From positions 682,001-746,000 of the forward strand of contig NC_015172.1 of assembly GCF_000190635.1 (NCBI RefSeq): a stretch of 64,000 bases of DNA, given 5' to 3'. The notes under the pieces were generated by a model. It had not been told where the DNA came from. It worked only from the letters and a program-made list of their open reading frames with translations, and searched no databases. The translations under genes and the position numbers were made by a program. Each line of letters begins with the position of its first letter. The first letter of the stretch is position 1. Source of the DNA: Syntrophobotulus glycolicus DSM 8271 (lineage in GTDB: Bacteria; Bacillota; Desulfitobacteriia; Desulfitobacteriales; Syntrophobotulaceae). Below, piece after piece: positions 199 through 48,068 of the stretch.

Positions 199-753
199 TT
201 GTTCAGTTACCAAAGAAGGCTCTTTTTTCCTGTCGCCATTGAAAGAAAAGATCCCGATGCGGCAAATATCCTGCGGGAGAGTTATGGGGGGAAGTTCGGG
301 GAATTATCCACCGCAATACAGTATCTCAATCATAAATCAAAGATGACCAATAACTACATCCGAGACTTAATGGGCATGATTGCTGCCGAAGAGCTGGGAC
401 ATCTGGAGTTATTGGAAAATGTGATTTATAAACTAAGCGGAGAACACCCGGACTATCTTGACCGTCAAAAGACTGGCTGGGAAATGAACCATGTGATTCA
501 GACGGGAAGCGAGGTGGAAATGCTGGAACATAATGAGGAGTCTGAGTTTTACGCCAAAAAGGAATACATGAACAGTATTGATTTGATTCAGGACCCCGCT
601 GTACATAAAATTCTGTTTTTTCTGGTGAACAGGGAAGAGGTTCATCAAAGACTGATCAGGAAAGCTAAGCTTCTCTTGCTGCAGGGCGGGAGCAATGAAA
701 AGTTTTCGGCATTAATTCATGAGTATAAAATGAGCATCAGAATTATTGAATAG
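199..753 (+). CDS. CotJC-like manganese catalase / spore coat protein
   Basis: This 184-residue protein belongs to the short manganese-catalase (CotJC) branch of the ferritin-like superfamily, whose members carry a dimetal centre in a four-helix bundle. Visible likely ligands are the Glu in YGGKFGEL, the pair in EELGH and the later REEVH motif. CotJC homologues sit in the spore coat or degrade hydrogen peroxide. The start is TTG 199, chosen because AAAGGAGG lies at 183-190; there is no suitable in-frame ATG. The aminotransferase gene follows 29 bp downstream in the same direction. No cotJA or cotJB neighbours are seen, so a coat role is not proven. Confidence 0.82.
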   Translation: MFSYQRRLFFPVAIERKDPDAANILRESYGGKFGELSTAIQYLNHKSKMTNNYIRDLMGMIAAEELGHLELLENVIYKLSGEHPDYLDRQKTGWEMNHVIQTGSEVEMLEHNEESEFYAKKEYMNSIDLIQDPAVHKILFFLVNREEVHQRLIRKAKLLLLQGGSNEKFSALIHEYKMSIRIIE

Positions 754-782
754 CGGACAACCAAAAGCAAAGGAGGCTTGTC

Positions 783-2135
783 ATGAGGCTTTTGATGTCG
801 AAAGCAAGTTACAGAAACCTTGTCATCGGAGTTGATACCCTTGTTCCTTTACATAATGGTCAGCAGGTGACGGCAATCAATTTTGATAATGCGGCGACAA
901 CACCTCCTTTAGTAAGGGTCATGGAGGAGATCAACGCTTTTGCCCCTTATTATTCCTCAATACACCGGGGGGCCGGGTATAAATCGGCGCTGTCCTCTGA
1001 AAAGTTTGAAGAGGCCCGCCAAACGGTGCTGGATTTTGTCGGCGCCGACAGCCGCAAGGATACTGCGATCTTTGTCAAGAATGCGACTGAAGCAATTAAT
1101 AAACTGGCTTTTCGGCTATGCTCCGGTTCTGATGAACAAAAGAGCAGGTTTTCCCCTGAAAAAAAGGGGGTTGTGCTGTCCACAAGCATGGAGCATCACT
1201 CCAATGATCTGCCCTGGCGGGGGAGGTTTGCGCTGGATTATGTGGAAATTGATCAATGGGGGAGGCTCCACTTAAGTGATTTAGAAAATAAGCTGCAGAA
1301 ATACGCGGGCCGGGTAAAGCTGGTGACCGTATCGGGAGCCTCAAATGTCACCGGCTATGTGAATCCTGTACACAGAATAGCGGAGACGGCGCATAAATAC
1401 GGGGCAAAAATCATGGTAGACGGCTCCCAGTTGATCCCGCACCTGCCGTTTGACATGCGGGAACACGGGTCTAAAAGGCATATAGACTACCTGGTCTTCT
1501 CCGCTCATAAAATGTACGCCCCATTTGGGACAGGGGTCCTGATCGGCCCCAAGGATACATTTGTTCCCGGGGACCCCGATATTACGGGAGGGGGAACGGT
1601 ACAGGTCGTCACTCATGAGGATGTGATATGGAATCCCCCTCCGGCCAAGGAAGAGGCCGGAACACCAAATCTGATGGGAGTAGTGGCTTTGGACGCGGCA
1701 ATAAAAACCCTCCGGGGGATCGGAATGGACAATATCGGCAGGCATGAAAAGGATTTGGCGGACTATTTGCTCAAAGGGATGAAAAGTATTCCCCATCTCG
1801 ATATCTATGTTCGGGAGACAGGAGATGAACGGCTTGGGATCATTCCTTTCAATGTAAGAGGAATATTTCATGAAACAATGGCCGGAGTTATGGCCGGTGA
1901 AGCGGGGATAGCCATCCGCAACGGCTGCTTTTGCGCCCATCCTTATATCCATAGGCTGCTCAAAGTGCCGAACATGGATATCGTCAGAATGATCAACAGT
2001 CCGGGAGAACAGAAACCGGGGATGGTCAGGGTAAGCTTTGGCTTATATAACGAACGGAGAGAAGTGGATGTTCTCTTGTCCCTCCTGGAAAAGGTCAGCC
2101 GGAACAGAAGGATGTATTTGCGGAAGTACAGCTGA
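783..2135 (+). CDS. Class V aminotransferase, cysteine desulfurase-like
   Basis: This 450-residue PLP enzyme resembles the SufS/NifS group. The PLP lysine is in SAHKMYAPFG, the cofactor aspartate in MVDGSQ, and a Cys-containing segment GCFCAHPY lies where group II cysteine desulfurases have their persulfide cysteine. It may release sulfur from cysteine, or be a related selenocysteine lyase or epimerase-like member; substrate cannot be read from sequence. The ATG at 783 has AAAGGAGG just upstream. It lies 29 bp after the CotJC-like gene and is probably cotranscribed with it. No SufU or IscU scaffold gene is adjacent. Confidence 0.8.
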   Translation: MRLLMSKASYRNLVIGVDTLVPLHNGQQVTAINFDNAATTPPLVRVMEEINAFAPYYSSIHRGAGYKSALSSEKFEEARQTVLDFVGADSRKDTAIFVKNATEAINKLAFRLCSGSDEQKSRFSPEKKGVVLSTSMEHHSNDLPWRGRFALDYVEIDQWGRLHLSDLENKLQKYAGRVKLVTVSGASNVTGYVNPVHRIAETAHKYGAKIMVDGSQLIPHLPFDMREHGSKRHIDYLVFSAHKMYAPFGTGVLIGPKDTFVPGDPDITGGGTVQVVTHEDVIWNPPPAKEEAGTPNLMGVVALDAAIKTLRGIGMDNIGRHEKDLADYLLKGMKSIPHLDIYVRETGDERLGIIPFNVRGIFHETMAGVMAGEAGIAIRNGCFCAHPYIHRLLKVPNMDIVRMINSPGEQKPGMVRVSFGLYNERREVDVLLSLLEKVSRNRRMYLRKYS

Positions 2136-2343
2136 TCAAGATAGAGCCGGAGACATCAACAGGATTCTTATAAGACTCTCCCATTGCCGAACGTCCAAGA
2201 TGGATTTCTTACAATAATCTTACATAACGATAAGATGAAGATAACCTAAAAACACCGACAAGTTTTTTATTTTTAAACGATAGAAGGGTAAACAAATCCA
2301 ATAACAACCCGAATAGATATAAGTAAAAAAAGAATACATTTAA

Positions 2344-2387
2344 AGAACTCAGCAAGAGGGCGGATTGGATTGTTGAGTTCTATTTTT
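2344..2387 (+). terminator. Rho-independent terminator
   Basis: AGAACTCAGCAA (2344-2355) pairs with TTGTTGAGTTCT (2370-2381), with one G-U pair, and is followed by ATTTTTG. It ends the 199-2135 operon. The rest of the 2136-2538 gap is AT-rich and shows no gene. Confidence 0.7.
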
Positions 2388-2538
2388 GTCCGTGAATAGT
2401 GAACAACGCAGGGAGTATTTGGAGAAGAAAAATTTAGTCTGCTGAGTATAAACACCTGTTCAATAACCGAAACTAATTTCATGGAAATAGTCTGATTTAG
2501 AGATTATGCAGAAAACCAATTGGTTAGGCGGTGTTGAA

Positions 2539-3063
2539 ATGGAAGAAAATGTGACAGGTCAGGTCAAAGAACAAGGACAGGCCGGAGAGAGAAAAAAATT
2601 GAGTCTCCTTCTTTTCAGCGGTGAATATGATAAGGCCCTGGCAGCCTTGATCCTCGCCAACTCAGCAAAAGAAATGGATATTGAGGTAAGTATTTTTTTT
2701 ACTTTTTGGGGACTTTGCTTGATCCGCGATCCTCAGAAAATGCACATGGAAGATAAGAATACTTATGAAAAAATGTTTGGATTAATGGCCCCTGCCGGTC
2801 CTGAAGACCTGCCCTTATCCAACATGAATATGGCTGGTATGGGGAAAGCCATGCTCAAGCAGATGATGAAGGATAATGAGGCTCCGGTCTTGGGGGATTT
2901 TTTAAAGGGTGCCCAAAACAAGGGCATTAACTTCTACGCCTGCAAGTTGGCTATGGAGGTCATGGGACTGCAATTAGATGAGATGCTGCCCGATGTGAAG
3001 ATCCTGACAGCTCAGGAATATCTGCGGGATGCGATGGAATCGGATGTCCAGCTTTTTATTTAA
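2539..3063 (+). CDS. DsrE/DsrF-like protein
   Basis: This protein of about 174 residues has the DsrE/F fold signature: a first strand LSLLLFSGEYDKALAALILA, then VSIFFTFWGLCLI, and a C-terminal VKILTAQEYL segment. The family includes sulfur-relay proteins and peroxiredoxin-like proteins of unknown function in Firmicutes. The central part is Met-rich (NMNMAGMGKAML). ATG 2539 is preferred over the upstream ATG 2506 because AGGCGGTG lies just before it. It stands alone between a terminator and citrate synthase. A sulfur-handling role alongside the upstream cysteine desulfurase-like gene is possible but unproven. Confidence 0.75.
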   Translation: MEENVTGQVKEQGQAGERKKLSLLLFSGEYDKALAALILANSAKEMDIEVSIFFTFWGLCLIRDPQKMHMEDKNTYEKMFGLMAPAGPEDLPLSNMNMAGMGKAMLKQMMKDNEAPVLGDFLKGAQNKGINFYACKLAMEVMGLQLDEMLPDVKILTAQEYLRDAMESDVQLFI

Positions 3064-3143
3064 GACGGATTGACACCTATGATAAAATTGAATTACAATA
3101 ATAATCCAGTATTGCTTAAAAACAAGATAAAGGAAGAATGAAA

Positions 3144-4526
3144 ATGGAAAACGGTAAATTTCTGAAATTTGAAGAAAAATTACTGGACAATTTATGTAAT
3201 ATTGCGCAAAAACGGAATTATATCAAGCAGGATCTTTATAGTAAATATGACGTAAAAAGAGGGCTGAGGGATCAGGACGGGAGAGGGGTTCTGGTCGGAC
3301 TGACGGAAATCGGGGATGTTCATTCCTATATTTTAGATGAAAATGAGATGGTTCCCGTACCAGGCAGGCTGCGGTACCGCGGTTATGATGTCAATGATCT
3401 CGTGCGCGGGTTTATGACCGACAAAAGATTCGGCTTTGAAGAAATTACTTATTTGCTGCTCTTCGGAGGTCTTCCGACAAAAGGAGAACTGGAGGAGTTC
3501 GTTTCCCTTTTGGCCAACTACCAAAGGCTACCTGAAGAGTTTGCCCGGGATATGATCCTGAAGGCCCCCAGCAAGGACATCATGAATGGGCTGGCCAGAA
3601 GTGTCCTGGCTTTGTATTCTTATGACGACAATCCTGAGGATACCTCAATTAGAAATGTCCTGCAGCAATGCCTGAAGCTGATTGCTCTATTTCCTTCAAT
3701 CGTTGTCTATTGTTTCCAGGCGTTTTCCCATTATCATGGAAATAAAAGTCTTTATATTCACAGCCCCAATCCCCAGCTTTCCTTAGCGGAAAATATTCTT
3801 TATATGCTTAGGCCGGATATGCAGTACACTCCATTGGAAGCTGATCTTCTTGATTTGGCTTTGGTTTTGCATGCCGAGCATGGCGGTGGAAATAACTCTT
3901 CTTTTGTAACCCATGTTGTTACATCCACCGGAACGGATACCTATTCCGTAATCGCATCTGCTCTGGGCTCTTTAAAAGGCCCCAGACATGGGGGAGCAAA
4001 TATTAAGGTCATCCAAATGATTGAAGATATTAAAGCAAATGTGGGAAATTGGGAGGATGATGAAGAGCTGACAAATTACCTCTCGAAGATTCTTTCCAAG
4101 GATACTTTTGATAAATCAGGGCTGATTTATGGAGTCGGACACGCCATTTACTCGATTTCCGATCCGCGGGCACTGATTCTTAAGGATTATGCAGGCAAGC
4201 TGGCCAGTGAAAAAGGACTTTCCAAGGAATATAACCTTTATGCGAGTATAGAGAGATTGGCGCCTCCGCTGGTCATCGCGAAAAACAATTTGGGCAGCAA
4301 GGTAGTCTGTGCCAATGTCGATTTTTATTCCGGTTTTGTTTATAAAATGCTGAATATTCCGGTGGAAATGTTTACTCCGATCTTTGCCATCGCGAGAATT
4401 TCCGGCTGGGGCGCGCACCGGATCGAAGAAATTGTCAACTCAGGCAAGATCATCAGACCGGCCTATAAGAGTGTAGCGCCTCGTCAGCAGTATATTCCGA
4501 TCAATCAGCGGAATTGTGCAAAATAA
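3144..4526 (+). CDS. Citrate synthase (Si type)
   Basis: This protein of about 460 residues is a citrate/2-methylcitrate synthase condensing acetyl-CoA (or propionyl-CoA) with oxaloacetate. Family signatures are LHAEHGGGNNSSF with the catalytic His, GPRHGGAN, GVGHAIYS and CANVDFYSG with the catalytic Asp. It is longer than the usual 370-430 residues because of an N-terminal extension. AGGAAG at 3131-3136 favours ATG 3144 over ATG 3138. It is monocistronic, ending at a hairpin. A second, unrelated (NifV-like) synthase is encoded at 35220-36368. Confidence 0.9.
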   Translation: MENGKFLKFEEKLLDNLCNIAQKRNYIKQDLYSKYDVKRGLRDQDGRGVLVGLTEIGDVHSYILDENEMVPVPGRLRYRGYDVNDLVRGFMTDKRFGFEEITYLLLFGGLPTKGELEEFVSLLANYQRLPEEFARDMILKAPSKDIMNGLARSVLALYSYDDNPEDTSIRNVLQQCLKLIALFPSIVVYCFQAFSHYHGNKSLYIHSPNPQLSLAENILYMLRPDMQYTPLEADLLDLALVLHAEHGGGNNSSFVTHVVTSTGTDTYSVIASALGSLKGPRHGGANIKVIQMIEDIKANVGNWEDDEELTNYLSKILSKDTFDKSGLIYGVGHAIYSISDPRALILKDYAGKLASEKGLSKEYNLYASIERLAPPLVIAKNNLGSKVVCANVDFYSGFVYKMLNIPVEMFTPIFAIARISGWGAHRIEEIVNSGKIIRPAYKSVAPRQQYIPINQRNCAK

Positions 4527-40199: not shown

Positions 40200-40322
40200 T
40201 CATTTAAAGGTCAGAAGCTGGCTGGGGTCTACATCAAGGGATTTTGCTATTCTATATAGGGCAATCATAGACTTCCGCTTGTCTATCTTGAGGCGACTCT
40301 GGGCCGCTAATCTTTATAGGAC
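40200..40322 (-). pseudogene. XRE-type HTH regulator, 3' remnant
   Basis: On the minus strand the sequence reads LAAQSRLKIDKRKSMIALYR then IAKSLDVDPSQLLTFK and a TGA at 40202-40200. This matches the C-terminal helices of an XRE/Cro HTH domain. The N-terminal part is missing: a TAA interrupts the frame just upstream, and the IS630 element starts there. Insertion with loss of flanking DNA probably removed it. Confidence 0.65.
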
Positions 40323-40324
40323 TA

Positions 40325-41559
40325 GTACAACATTCTCAAAATAACTACACAAAGATACTAAAATATGGTATGCTATTTATATCTTAGCAAATGAGGTATG
40401 GATAGATGGCAAGACCAAAACAAAATGTTGTTGAATTAACCGGAGATGAAATATCTGCATTGCAAAAAATAGTAAGGACTCATACTGCTGAAGCACGCAC
40501 AGTCCAGCGGGCAAAAATACTTTTATATAGTGCCGATGGAATGAGCGATTCATCAATTGCTGAAAAGCTTGACATAAACCGGCGTTCTGTCTATAACTGC
40601 ATTGCAAAATATATAGCAGCAGGAATGGAAGCCGCCCTTGAAGATTTAGCAAGGACAGGGCGCCCAGGAACTATTACTGACGAAGAGAAAGTATGGATTA
40701 TAGATATTGCCTGTCAGAAACCTGCTTCATTTGGTTATCCACAGGAGTTATGGACAATGTCCAAACTACAGCAGCATATACGTGCGAATTGCCAGGCTGC
40801 TGGTTATTCCGGTCTTGAAAAAATAGCAGTTTCGAAAATATGGACAATCCTTAATGATGCCGAAATCAAGCCGCAGAAAATCCGGTACTATCTGGAAAAA
40901 CGGGATCCGGAATTCAAGCAGAAAATGAATGAGGTGCTCATTGTCTATAAACAGCTTGAATTCCAATTTGAAACAAATGAAAATAACGGAACAATCACTA
41001 TCTCCTATGATGAAAAACCTGGCATACAGGCCATTGCAAATACTGCAGAAGACCTGCTTCCTAATAGAGAACATGGATTTGTAGGACGGGACAGCGAATA
41101 CAAACGGCTCGGAACGGTATCACTTTTGGCAGGAATGGATTTATATACAGGAGAGATTATTCCGTTAGTAAGTAATACGCACAAAAGTGCTGATTTTATA
41201 AATTTCCTTAAAATATTGGATGGAAAATATGATAAAGATTTGATAATAAGGATTGCCCTTGACAATCATAGTGCGCATACTTCGAAAGAAACCATGAAAT
41301 ACTTGGCTAGCAGACCAGGAAGGTTTGAATTTGTATTCACTCCAAAACACGGATCATGGCTAAACCTAATAGAAAGCTTCTTCGGAAAGTTAGCAAGGGT
41401 ATGCCTGAAGGGCATCAGGGTAAAATCTAAGGAAGAACTCATCGATAGAATCTACCGATATCTGGATGAAGTTAATGAGGTTCCTGTCGTTTACCATTGG
41501 AAATATAAAATGGATGAAATTCAAATCTGATTTGCGCAACTAATTTAAGAATGTTGTAC
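40325..41559 (+). mobile_element. IS630-family insertion sequence, intact
   Basis: The element is 1235 bp. Ends GTACAACATTCT (40325-40336) and AGAATGTTGTAC (41548-41559) are perfect inverted repeats, flanked by TA on both sides (40323-40324, 41560-41561), the expected IS630/Tc1 target duplication. It lies between an HTH remnant and the truncated 5' end of an RHS gene. Confidence 0.93.
40406..41530 (+). CDS. IS630 family transposase
   Basis: The 374-residue protein has an N-terminal HTH region (SDSSIAEKLDINRRSVYNCIAKY) and a DDE domain: ISYDEKPGIQ, IALDNHSAHTSKE and SWLNLIESFFGKLAR. It looks full length and uninterrupted, so the element may be active. Confidence 0.93.
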   Translation: MARPKQNVVELTGDEISALQKIVRTHTAEARTVQRAKILLYSADGMSDSSIAEKLDINRRSVYNCIAKYIAAGMEAALEDLARTGRPGTITDEEKVWIIDIACQKPASFGYPQELWTMSKLQQHIRANCQAAGYSGLEKIAVSKIWTILNDAEIKPQKIRYYLEKRDPEFKQKMNEVLIVYKQLEFQFETNENNGTITISYDEKPGIQAIANTAEDLLPNREHGFVGRDSEYKRLGTVSLLAGMDLYTGEIIPLVSNTHKSADFINFLKILDGKYDKDLIIRIALDNHSAHTSKETMKYLASRPGRFEFVFTPKHGSWLNLIESFFGKLARVCLKGIRVKSKEELIDRIYRYLDEVNEVPVVYHWKYKMDEIQI

Positions 41560-41560
41560 T

Positions 41561-43910
41561 AGCCCTACCGGTGAAGCAACCCAATTCGCCTACGATGGCC
41601 AGGAAAACCTGCGCACAGTCACAGATAACGCCGGAAACACCGCTACCTATACCCTAGATGGCAGCGGCAATGTGACAGATGTAGAAGTCAAGCAAAACGG
41701 AACAACTTCGGTCTATAAAAACACCTTTGAATACGATCAATCCGGCAATATGACCAAAGAGACCGCCAAACCCAACTTAAGTAATCCAGCAAACGATAAA
41801 ACCACCCAATATCTCTATGACGAAGCAGGCAGGCTGACGGGGAAAGTCAACCCCGGCGACAGTACAAGTAACCCCAGCGTAAGTCTTGGCTATAAATACT
41901 TCGGCCTGGACTTCCTGAAAATCCTGAACGGACCAAAATATACCTTTGACTATAATCAGGAAGGCCAAACCACCAAAGAAGAACTCTTTAACAGCAGCGA
42001 CACCAAAATAGGAGAGTTCGACTCCGAATATGACGCTCTGGGCCGGATGAATAAATTCACCGAAAAAGACGGCAGCGGCAATGAAATTGCCAGGTTTGAA
42101 AAACCGACCAAAGATTCATCCAAGATAGATATGTATGACCAAAGCGGTAACTTTAACGGATTTGACCTGATCTATAAAGGGCAAACCTCTAATTTCATCA
42201 CCTACCTGTTCACCTATTTAAGCAACAATCTGGTTAAGACAATCACAGCTGCCGGTAAACAGTTCAATCTATACTTCGATGAAGGCGGGTTATTTACATC
42301 CAGAGTAAACCCTAACAATACGAGTGATGAATTCAAGTACAATGATGCCGGACAGGTCATTGAAAGCAAGACCAACAGCGTTGTTCCCAGCACGAATGGG
42401 AATACCACCACGACCAGTGTTTCTACCAAATGGTCCAGCCAGTACACTTATGACGCTGACGGCAGATTAACAAAGATCACCGATGGGGCTACAGGCAATT
42501 CAAGTGCTGTTTACACTTATAATAACGGAACGGAAAAGCTTAATCGATTAACAAAGGCCGTGCTGGCCAATGGCACTTACACCTTCGACTACTCCTATGA
42601 TTCCAGGGGCAATATTCTAAACATGGATCTCTTAATCGGAGGAAGTGTCCAAGAACCAGACGTTCAGTTATAACGATGACAACCAGATCACCACATCGGG
42701 CTTCGTCTACGACAACAGCGGCAACCTGACGAGTGCTGTGGTCAAGGGAGTAACGTATAATTACGTCTACGATAAAGCCAACAGACTGATTGAAGTCAAA
42801 GACGGAAGCAATCAGACAATAGCAACTTACACTTACGATTCCCAGGGACAGAGACTGACCAAAACCACAGGCGGCAGCACGATCACTTACCACTATGGGA
42901 ACGGCGGAGTTCTTTATGAAACCAAGAGCGGCGACGCCAACAATATCCTGCATGCCTTGTATATTAACTCACCACAAGGTAAACCGCTTGCTGTAAGCAT
43001 GAACTATGATATTAGTAATCCTGGATCAAATATCTGGTACTATTATCATTACAATGCCCATGGGGATGTAGTGGCTGTAACGGACGGAAACGGCAATATA
43101 TTCAGAGAGTATGCTTATGATCCGTACGGGAATATTATTAGTGCGAAGGATGGCGGCGGACAGACGGTAAATATTTCTACCGATACAGCTTTCGACCATG
43201 CTTACACTTACGCGGGTTACAGATACGACAGAGAAACTGGATTATATTACCTCAATGCTCGATACTACGAAGCAGGAATCGGCAGGTTTTTGACGAAGGA
43301 CAATATTTATAATTTAAACCGTTATGCTTACTGCCTTGGAGATCCTGTAAATTACATTGACCCTAGTGGTGAAAATTCTATTACTTGGGATTCTTTTCGG
43401 GCAGGAGCCGGGGCGGCGGCATCAACAGGATTATCAATAACTGCAGGTATGATTAGTTGGGCTTTTGCTCTATCAATAGGTTTTATATTAGCAACTCCAA
43501 CGTATACAGCCGATGAAAGTATATATATGACTCAGCCAACGTCTGGCGTGTCAAACGGTGATATTGAAGCTGGAGGTGACGGCGGAGGCGGAGGTGGTTC
43601 TACTCAACCTCCTAAAAAACCGAAAAAACCGACACATGGTCATCATGCCTACCCAATGGCATTAGGTGGTGCTGCAGCCCAAAAAGTTTATGAGATGCTT
43701 CCATCTGTTCATAGATATCTGCATGCGGCACTTTATCAATTTGAGAGAGGTTGGCTGGCACCTAAAAGAGGGTATACTGGTGAGATGATTCAAAGAATAT
43801 ATAGTGCAAAGGAAATTCAACAAGGGCTGATGAGGTTTTACAACAGTCATGAAGAGTTCAAAGTCCTCATTGACCCATTGATGAAAGCAATCGAATTTAC
43901 AGGTAAGTAA
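41561..43910 (+). pseudogene. RHS-repeat polymorphic toxin, 5'-truncated and frameshifted
   Basis: An RHS protein with YD repeats (YDQSGNMTKE, YDEAGRLTGK, YDADGRLTKI) is open from the IS630 edge but stops at 42673. The frame resumes from about 42637-42645 and continues to the core-end motifs GLYYLNARYYEAGIGRFLTKD-like and DPVNYIDPSGE. The C-terminal tip, after a Gly-rich and PKKPKKP linker, starts HGHHAYPMALGG and has SVHRYLHAAL. It resembles His-rich nuclease-like toxin tips (HNH or Sit6-type), which is inference. The frameshift and missing N-terminus suggest it is no longer secreted whole. The adjacent gene is a probable immunity protein. Confidence 0.82.
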
Positions 43911-43929
43911 ATGTTAGAGGTGAATTACA

Positions 43930-44742
43930 TTGAAGGAAAAAGTATGGGTTAATATACCGCTAAATTATCTGGAGGTACTAAGGGATTGGTCACAATTTTT
44001 CGCTTATGAATCTGAGGACGAAGAAAATGGCAAGCTAGTTGTTTATGAGTTTACTACGAATACAAAAGAATATTGTAATTTTGATCAGTTCTTAAAGGAA
44101 AACACGATTAAGCATTATATTTTCAGAAGAGTATATACTTTTACAAAGCGTGAAAAGGATAATGCCGAAATACTGTGGCTTTGGACAGATGATGACGCTA
44201 AAGAGTCTTATACTCCGGAGCTAATAAACCATGTATGTGATGCATGCGGAAAGAAAATACCGCACCTAGACAGGCATCTGCTTCATGTTGATTACAAAAA
44301 AATAAAAAAATATGATATTATGTCCACCTACCATGGGGATACAGAAACCATAGTATCAGAAAAAATAAAGCATTTATTTAATCAGGAGGGTATTACGGGC
44401 GTAGAATTTGAACCGATATATCAGATTGGCAAAGAAAATCAGGTGATTGAAGGATTTTATCATTTAATTCTCCGGGAAGGAATTGGAGATGTCGTAGAAC
44501 CTTCTGAAATAATCAAAAAAGATTATTGTCCTGTATGCGGTTTTTATGATGACTTCAGATGTAAAACAACGCTTAACTTTAAGCGTAATACTTGGAAAGG
44601 GCTGGATATTTGCTATACAAAAAATTGGTTTGGCGGGCCTCCAAAATTTAAATCATTAATCATATCAAACAAATTATACAGGGTTTTGGAACAGAATAAG
44701 ATTAAGCATGTATATTTTCAGCCGGCGTATTTAATCGATTAG
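43930..44742 (+). CDS. Probable immunity protein, double-CXXCG type
   Basis: The 270-residue protein has two CXXCG knuckles, CDACG at about 98-102 and CPVCG at about 198-202, like the double-CXXCG (SitI6-type) immunity proteins described with myxobacterial SitA toxins. It lies 19 bp after the RHS toxin tip, the usual place of an immunity gene. TTG 43930 is chosen because AGAGGTG lies about 8 bp upstream. The frame is intact although the toxin is broken, as expected if the gene still protects against related cells. Family assignment is by motif memory only. Confidence 0.65.
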   Translation: MKEKVWVNIPLNYLEVLRDWSQFFAYESEDEENGKLVVYEFTTNTKEYCNFDQFLKENTIKHYIFRRVYTFTKREKDNAEILWLWTDDDAKESYTPELINHVCDACGKKIPHLDRHLLHVDYKKIKKYDIMSTYHGDTETIVSEKIKHLFNQEGITGVEFEPIYQIGKENQVIEGFYHLILREGIGDVVEPSEIIKKDYCPVCGFYDDFRCKTTLNFKRNTWKGLDICYTKNWFGGPPKFKSLIISNKLYRVLEQNKIKHVYFQPAYLID

Positions 44743-46399: not shown

Positions 46400-47182
46400 T
46401 TATCTTTCATCAATTTTGAAGTTTACACAGAGTTCGGGATACACCCGGGCATTATCAAGGCATTGCCCTCGGCCATCCATGGAAATTTTCACGCCGGCGC
46501 TTTCGAGCAGCAAAATATAATCTGGATTCGTGAAATGGCCCTCCTGGTCACTGTTGATAATTTCGGGCTTTCTATGACTCATGGCACGTTTTAAGCAACT
46601 CAGGACAAAAGATTTATCAAGCGTACTGGACAGTTCGTAGTCAACAATATAGCGGCTGTACCAATCGATAATGACGAATAGGTACATGAATCCTTTTTTC
46701 ATTCGAATATATGTAATGTCTATCCCCCACACCTGATCCGGCCGGTTGATTTCCAGCTTGCGCAACAAGTACGGCCGGATGTATTGGGAATGGTACCGTT
46801 TGCTTAGATTGGGTTTCGGATAAATTGTGTAAATCCCCATATCCCGCAGGATGCGGCGAACTCGTTTTCTGTTGATAAGCAAGCCATAGTCTCTTCTCAG
46901 GATTGTTGTAATGGTTCGGTAGCCCCAGGTTGGCTCACCCGTGTGGATCTCATCGATCCGGCGCATCACAAATAATTCCGCATCGGAAAGGGTCTTCTGC
47001 TCAGAAATACGGCGGTAAACACTGCTGCGGTTAATGCTCAGCAATTGCGCCTGGCGCTTAACGCTAATTCGGGGATTGTCCCGGTCAACGAAACTTTTTC
47101 TGCCAGTCGGCTCCGACAATTTGCTCAGATTTTTTTTTGAGCCAGTCCACCTCGTAGGTGAGCTGACCAACCTTGCGTTCAA
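46400..47182 (-). pseudogene. IS3 transposase OrfB, lacking the catalytic Glu
   Basis: The frame shows the HTH_21 region (LLSINRSSVYRRISEQKTLS) and an rve core with GIDITYIRMKKGFMYLF and IINSDQEGHF, giving the first two Asp residues. It runs into DNAR, where intact relatives continue with an ERF segment carrying the third catalytic residue. Here it becomes VYPELCVNFKIDER and stops. Expression would normally need a -1 frameshift from orfA at an A9 run near 47115-47135. It is therefore probably inactive. Confidence 0.8.
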
Positions 47183-47408
47183 GTTCTGCTACGTGACGCT
47201 GCTGTTTATCAAGTTCTTTCTCGGCATCCGAAGGCCCTTTCTTAAATACCTCCGCGGCTCGTTCCAGAAACTCTTGCTTCCAGCGGCTGATAACAACAGG
47301 ACTGATACCGTACTTTGCGGCAATTTCATTGACGGTGGAAGCCTCCTGTATTACCTCCAGGACTACCTTGGTTTTAAATTCGGCTGGATAATGGTTTCGC
47401 TTATTCAT
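47085..47408 (-). CDS. IS3 family transposase OrfA
   Basis: The 107-residue HTH protein starts MNKRNHYPAEFKTKVVLEV and has KYGISPVVISRWKQEFLERA, followed by a coiled coil (ELERKVGQLTYEVDWLKKK). The A-rich slippery stretch encoding LKKKSEQ is where IS3 elements shift to orfB. The frame itself is intact. Confidence 0.85.
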   Translation of the reverse strand: MNKRNHYPAEFKTKVVLEVIQEASTVNEIAAKYGISPVVISRWKQEFLERAAEVFKKGPSDAEKELDKQQRHVAELERKVGQLTYEVDWLKKKSEQIVGADWQKKFR

Positions 47409-47462: not shown

Positions 47463-48068
47463 ATATACCGCTGTCAGAATATCTCTTGTCCGGCCAGACA
47501 AAGAGAGGCCTTGTTTCATTTTGTCTCTAGGGATGCGATGAACATTGATGGGCTGGGTCCGGCAATCATTGTTCAGCTCATGGAAAACAGGCTGTTCCAC
47601 GATGCTGCCGATTTTTTGTATTATCTCAAACAGGAACAGATGGAAAGTATGGAGCGCATGGAAAAAAATCCGCCGGCAATCTGATAGGAGCTATTGAAGC
47701 GAGTAAATCCCGCGGCTTAGCACCATTAATATTTGCACTTGGTATTCGTAATGTCGGAGTAAGGCTGGTAAGGTATTGGCTTAAAAATACGGGGCAATGG
47801 AAAAATTGGAACAGGCCCAAGAGGCTGAGCTGCAAGAAATACCTGATATCGGCGGTATTATGGCCGCAAGCATAGCTTCCTTTTTCCATGATCAGGCTAA
47901 CAGGGAATTCATTCAAAGGCTGAAGGATGCCGGAGTTCAAATGACAGACAACAGACAAGCTTCATCCCAGCTTTTTATCGGCAAAAGCATTGTTGTTACT
48001 GGGACTCTCCAGAATTGGGACTACCGGTATATACGGAGGAAGAGTTTAGGCAGATGATTGAGGAATGA
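47463..48068 (+). pseudogene. ligA 3' fragment, degenerate
   Basis: The fragment begins [20 protein letters not shown], identical to LigA except at its first residue, and over the first 38 residues from YRCQ differs at one position. One-base deletions disrupt the frame near 47665 and 47765. The helix-hairpin-helix part ([16 protein letters not shown]) and start of BRCT ([12 protein letters not shown]) follow; most of BRCT is deleted, and the end resumes PVYTEEEFRQMIEE. Codons differ at many third positions from the intact ligA at 22470, so it is a diverged copy rather than a recent duplication. Confidence 0.9.

Follow-up and report, generated by a model that had tools for sequence, protein, structure and literature searches.

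A decayed RHS toxin-immunity cassette with a predicted HNH-type tip and an Imm11-like partner in Syntrophobotulus glycolicus

Results

The window analyzed in this work is a stretch of 64,000 nucleotides, positions 682001-746000 of the single chromosome (3,406,739 bases) of Syntrophobotulus glycolicus DSM 8271, and coordinates are counted from its first base. An IS630-family element lies at 40317-41567 on the plus strand; its transposase (40406-41530) matched NF033545 with 212 bits and also PF13358, and its inverted repeats (40317-40353 and 41531-41567) are 81% complementary. An RHS frame opens directly at the right end of this element, and it is here that the RHS gene is broken on its 5' side. 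Since no RHS sequence was found to the left of IS630, the N-terminus was lost and not merely interrupted, in agreement with the initial annotation, which had described an RHS toxin without its N-terminus. The loss probably occurred via a rearrangement at IS630. A cut HTH-like frame on the minus strand (40200-40316) abuts the left end of the element. Elsewhere in the window (47480-48057), pieces that by eye resemble a NAD-dependent DNA ligase adjoin an IS3 copy (46400-47408) and apparently derive from a broken ligA-like gene.

The RHS gene is found in two overlapping plus-strand frames. The 5'-truncated repeat fragment (41562-42673), open from the end of the insertion sequence, matched PF05593 (70.1 bits) and TIGR01643, and ends at a stop codon at 42671-42673. 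The second frame (42645-43910) contains YD repeats, the RHS core at about 43116-43370 (TIGR03696, 73.8 bits, residues 158-242), a linker and the toxin tip. The overlap places a frameshift near 42645-42673, close to the position of about 42640 proposed earlier. Thus, the repeats and core that precede a variable C-terminal tip in RHS polymorphic toxins are present, and an intact N-terminal secretion part is not; with the N-terminus gone and the frame broken, the cell can neither make nor deliver the RHS protein as such. The GC content is about 44-46% in the RHS part and drops to about 34% in the gene that follows the tip, as is usual for exchangeable toxin cassettes. A search of the genome for a donor of the cassette led to a second, different RHS remnant (L044, G000:C1:2155662-2158284), which has no DNA similarity to the window copy.

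This setting, between IS630 and IS256 and next to the cut HTH-like frame, in a genome with another RHS remnant, favors the view that the locus is a silent leftover among insertion sequences, bound to be lost, whose intact short genes reflect only a recent break. Against it, the two short genes have both stayed open, whereas there is one frameshift in the RHS part, although this comparison is not statistically informative. We give about even odds to such plain decay.

The 96-residue toxin tip (43620-43907, plus strand) had no match in Pfam, NCBIfam, PADLOC or PDB sequences, and a single weak one in PHROGs, to a PHROG of unknown function (E 0.005). A single-sequence search of 100 related genomes recovered no copy, and a peptide scan of genome contigs and searches of phages and viral contigs found nothing. 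Matches on plasmids, only at E 0.1-0.2, and to 9jg8 (E 0.025-0.3) were taken as chance.

To recover relatives, HHx[YF]PxxLGG-x13-HxxLH was written as a degenerate DNA pattern. The window contains it once, and none of 100 shuffles contained it. A scan of about 85,000 genomes returned ten places, and clear full-length relatives of the tip stand at seven of them: in Porphyromonas gulae (L021), a Bacillota metagenome-assembled genome (L022), Chloroherpetonaceae (L023), Proteobacteria (L026) and Prevotella (L025, L027 and L028, the last contained in L034). The other three are a more distant Phenylobacterium sequence (L030), a truncated one (L024) and a doubtful one (L029). The clear relatives form the C-terminal ends of long frames. 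The carrier is an RHS protein in L023, L027 and L034, and in L026 it is a very long frame with filamentous-haemagglutinin-like repeats, as judged by eye, and no NCBIfam match. The closest relative, that of L022, is 38% identical over 91 residues (E 4e-22), in an alignment that spans the whole tip and goes past the stretch used in the pattern search.

The tip and its seven clear relatives share HHx[FY]PxxLGG...HxxxH. Invariant residues in the alignment are H8, H9, P12, G16, G17, Q21, H31 and H35, of which the histidines owe part of their conservation to the choice of hits, since the search pattern fixed their spacing. The invariant HH pair (residues 8-9, 43641-43646) and HxxxH motif (residues 31-35, 43710-43724) appear in alignments A2 and A4. 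Other searches did not extend the family: the shorter pattern HHx[YF]PxxLGG gave three chance hits in 398 Bacillota, in non-coding or unrelated frames; run against 296 genomes of the phylum that contains Prevotella, the A2 profile returned only members already known, and its one hit in 249 Bacillota was antisense and spurious. None of ten tip-family members had a convincing family match in Pfam. Judged by sequence, this is a rare family, spread over several phyla and uncatalogued in the libraries searched.

An AlphaFold2 model of the tip, built from nine sequences, is confident (pLDDT 91.5, pTM 0.81). It shows a strand at residues 6-9 carrying the HH pair, a second strand at 23-26, a helix at 28-44 carrying HxxxH, and then three helices. 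This order and the placement of the histidines would fit an HNH (beta-beta-alpha-metal) nuclease, and we consider nuclease activity of the tip likely on the basis of the model. Foldseek found nothing for the model among solved structures. Structural matches to the HNH domains of IscB and McrA (Z 2.3-2.6) rank under those to pyrin domains (Z 3-4), which were dismissed as the fold of the tip because they reflect a common helical arrangement. The HNH fold suggested by the model is thus not confirmed by the structure searches.

The gene behind the tip (43930-44742, plus strand) encodes 270 residues from a TTG start located 20 bases after the stop codon of the tip, with a ribosome-binding-like AGAGGTG upstream (43916-43922). 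Both this frame and that of the tip are open, as had been noted at the outset, and the protein has the two CXXCG knuckles first reported for it: CDACG at residues 103-107 (44236-44250) and CPVCG at residues 200-204 (44527-44541), both on the plus strand. Shuffling the protein gave two CXXCG motifs in only 1 of 20,000 shuffles.

The next gene on the same strand encodes a cysteine-knuckle protein in all seven clear relatives (L021-L023, L025-L027 and L028/L034). In L022 it is a full-length orthologue of the window protein, beside the same tip (38% identity over 273 residues, E 8e-53). Strict CXXC pairs are found in the window, L022, L023, L025 and L026, while L021, L027 and L034 have CXXC and then a CCG variant with another residue in place of the first cysteine, the L027 and L021 sequences being partial or variant at the second knuckle. 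Among the relatives the knuckles are CXXC or HXXC, and the glycine is not constant. Two spaced CXXC motifs occurred in three of 60 ORFs of 150-300 residues at nine loci, and each of the three was the gene behind the tip. As the pairing is conserved across phyla, the window pair is a toxin tip with its immunity gene, which bears out the initial assignment.

These data also bear on the proposal that the immunity gene, perhaps with the tip, has been selected as protection from relatives delivering an intact toxin. Both frames are intact despite the broken RHS part, the immunity gene has a ribosome-binding-like site of its own, and its comparison with the L022 gene (dN 0.61, dS about 2.0) indicates long-run purifying selection. 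However, this ratio reflects a long history before the break and, as it covers the long branch to L022, neither dates nor tests selection after it. Moreover, promoter-like sites are at chance level (8 found, 9.0 expected), and the 100 related genomes hold no copies of the tip against which to be protected. We regard a functional orphan defence as rather unlikely, and any protection still afforded by the cassette as conjectural.

The immunity protein has an N-terminal ferredoxin-like part (residues 1 to about 70) and an Imm11-like part (58-266). It was modelled with middling confidence (pLDDT 73.9, pTM 0.70), but MXAN_0049 (6a4c; Foldseek E 3.3e-4, probability 1.00) stood out clearly as the best structural match. 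The match of the model to 6a4c (VIA) has Z 10.1 over 163 residues with an rmsd of 4.3, the next best having Z 7.0. MXAN_0049 is the prototype of Imm11, which shares clan CL0767 with double_CXXCG, the family of SitI6 (PMC12077181). A profile comparison of the immunity protein with the Imm11 pair gave P 3.4e-5. Against Imm11 (PF07791) itself the window protein scored 17.6 bits (E 0.0025), under the cut-off of 22.1, and the L022 orthologue scored 31.5 bits, above it. The predicted fold is that of MXAN_0049, on which membership of CL0767 was judged; by its model, the immunity protein is a structural member of the clan in which the Sit immunity proteins of myxobacteria are placed.

The initial annotation had called it a SitI6-type protein, which stands as regards the two CXXCG knuckles and the clan, reached through the MXAN_0049 fold, but not as regards the family itself, since the score against PF09535 was 11.4 bits with a cut-off of 25. 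TIGR02264 was also absent from the NCBIfam scan results of the window. SitA6/SitI6 pairs have been characterised in Myxococcus (PMC6091211, PMC8546572), and the families concerned are PF09533/TIGR02269 for the toxin and PF09535/TIGR02264 for its partner. The likeness lies in a double-CXXCG immunity protein beside a histidine-rich toxin, a predicted nuclease in the window, and in a shared clan with a structural match to MXAN_0049. If the pair were a true SitA6/SitI6 member on an RHS shell, however, the tip should resemble SitA6. A profile check of the tip against SitA6/DUF2380 had been suggested, and its outcome was negative: across ten members there was no match to PF09533 or to AHH (PF14412) at up to E 10, and the tip profile was not significantly similar to HHIFPQ- or AHH-type toxins. 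SitA6 is a lipoprotein with an escort domain of its own, transferred by TraAB outer-membrane exchange, whereas the window carrier is an RHS protein and lacks both a lipobox and an escort domain. The window pair reaches neither curated family, and true membership is highly improbable. Genome searches with PF09535 and PF15635 gave no match anywhere, control genomes included, and are hence uninformative on absence.

A profile of the window immunity protein was also used to search genomes. In L003, an immunity gene on the minus strand (1501-2304) encodes a knuckle protein 29% identical to that of the window, close to an RHS frame (2311-3363) that is open to the contig end and has a different tip, ETHHLIEK. 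In three genomes of one genus (L009, L010 and L011), the toxin combines a pre-toxin domain and a VHHIFPQ tip, and the Imm11-like protein behind it has no knuckles. In L013, the toxin is of the AHH type (60.4 bits) and two Imm11 proteins come after it. With these partners, the wider immunity family goes with double-histidine tips generally. The window tip has no significant similarity to the toxins of these loci. The search also recovered Imm11-like stretches embedded in HEAT-repeat proteins of 899 residues in L008 (G278; 394-3090, minus strand; E 6.5e-10) and 520 residues in L012 (G325; 1465-3024, minus strand; E 1.3e-5), a possible non-toxin use of this fold.

Discussion

We interpret the locus as what is left of an RHS polymorphic toxin system directed at other bacteria, a decayed toxin-immunity cassette of a known kind, with a probability of about 0.78. 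In intact relatives, the RHS shell would bear a variable C-terminal tip. This tip is most likely a nuclease of the HNH type (beta-beta-alpha), small and dependent on metal, that would act in the cytoplasm of the target cell. The gene behind it would encode an Imm11-clan immunity protein that presumably binds and blocks the tip in the producer, and the cysteine knuckles are probably structural zinc sites. In S. glycolicus, the IS630-associated 5' loss and the frameshift would have put an end to delivery, and the tip and its immunity gene would remain behind in a silent or orphan cassette.

It had been suggested that a Firmicute RHS version of this pair would extend the system, which is overstated. 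Already in 2012, Zhang and co-workers recorded Imm11 alongside Tox-AHH, Tox-HNH and Tox-SHH in many phyla, Firmicutes among them (PMC3482391), and in 2021 a protein matching Imm43, double_CXXCG and DUF1629 was described behind an AHH toxin in the alphaproteobacterial endosymbiont of Bodo saltans (PMC8163844). With these precedents, a Firmicute RHS version is to be expected. The Imm11 (PF07791) systems share with the window the immunity fold, the order of tip and then immunity gene, the RHS carrier and the occurrence in Firmicutes, and a double-histidine HNH-type tip would be expected. In contrast, an extra N-terminal domain and two cysteine knuckles set the window immunity protein apart, and no catalogued toxin domain matches the tip. 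Another relevant toxin is Tox-GHH2 (PF15635), defined by the motif s[AGP]HH, HxxxH (PMC3482391). It shares with the tip the GHH followed by HxxxH, the RHS carrier and a distribution over Bacteroidetes, Firmicutes and Proteobacteria, but in a comparison by Pfam model and motif only, its Pfam model matched none of ten tip-family members. As no immunity is listed for Tox-GHH2 (PMC3482391), the pairing is not comparable.

The new part would thus be the tip family, uncatalogued in the libraries searched, since the Firmicute RHS carrier with an Imm11-type partner is expected. A bolder view takes the tip as the first member to be noticed of a rare, multi-phylum family of HNH-like toxins not described before (HHx[FY]PxxLGGxxxQ...HxxxH), with a dedicated zinc-knuckle branch of the Imm11 clan as its partners. 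Such pairs would in effect be the counterpart of SitA6/SitI6 outside the myxobacteria, having evolved on RHS carriers, and the window copy would be an orphan retained for immunity. We advance this view tentatively, at somewhat worse than even chances, and retain the decayed cassette as our interpretation.

The window cassette leaves the understanding of polymorphic toxins unchanged. What it contributes is a toxin domain absent from the searched copies of Pfam, NCBIfam, PHROGs and PADLOC, along with the corresponding immunity protein. Bacillota, Bacteroidota and Proteobacteria all have double-histidine tips paired in this way with Imm11-clan immunity proteins that bear knuckles, a pairing that gives a sequence signature by which such tip-immunity pairs may be annotated. 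Moreover, it provides a small, ready-made system in which the role of the cysteine knuckles in SitI6-like proteins could be probed.
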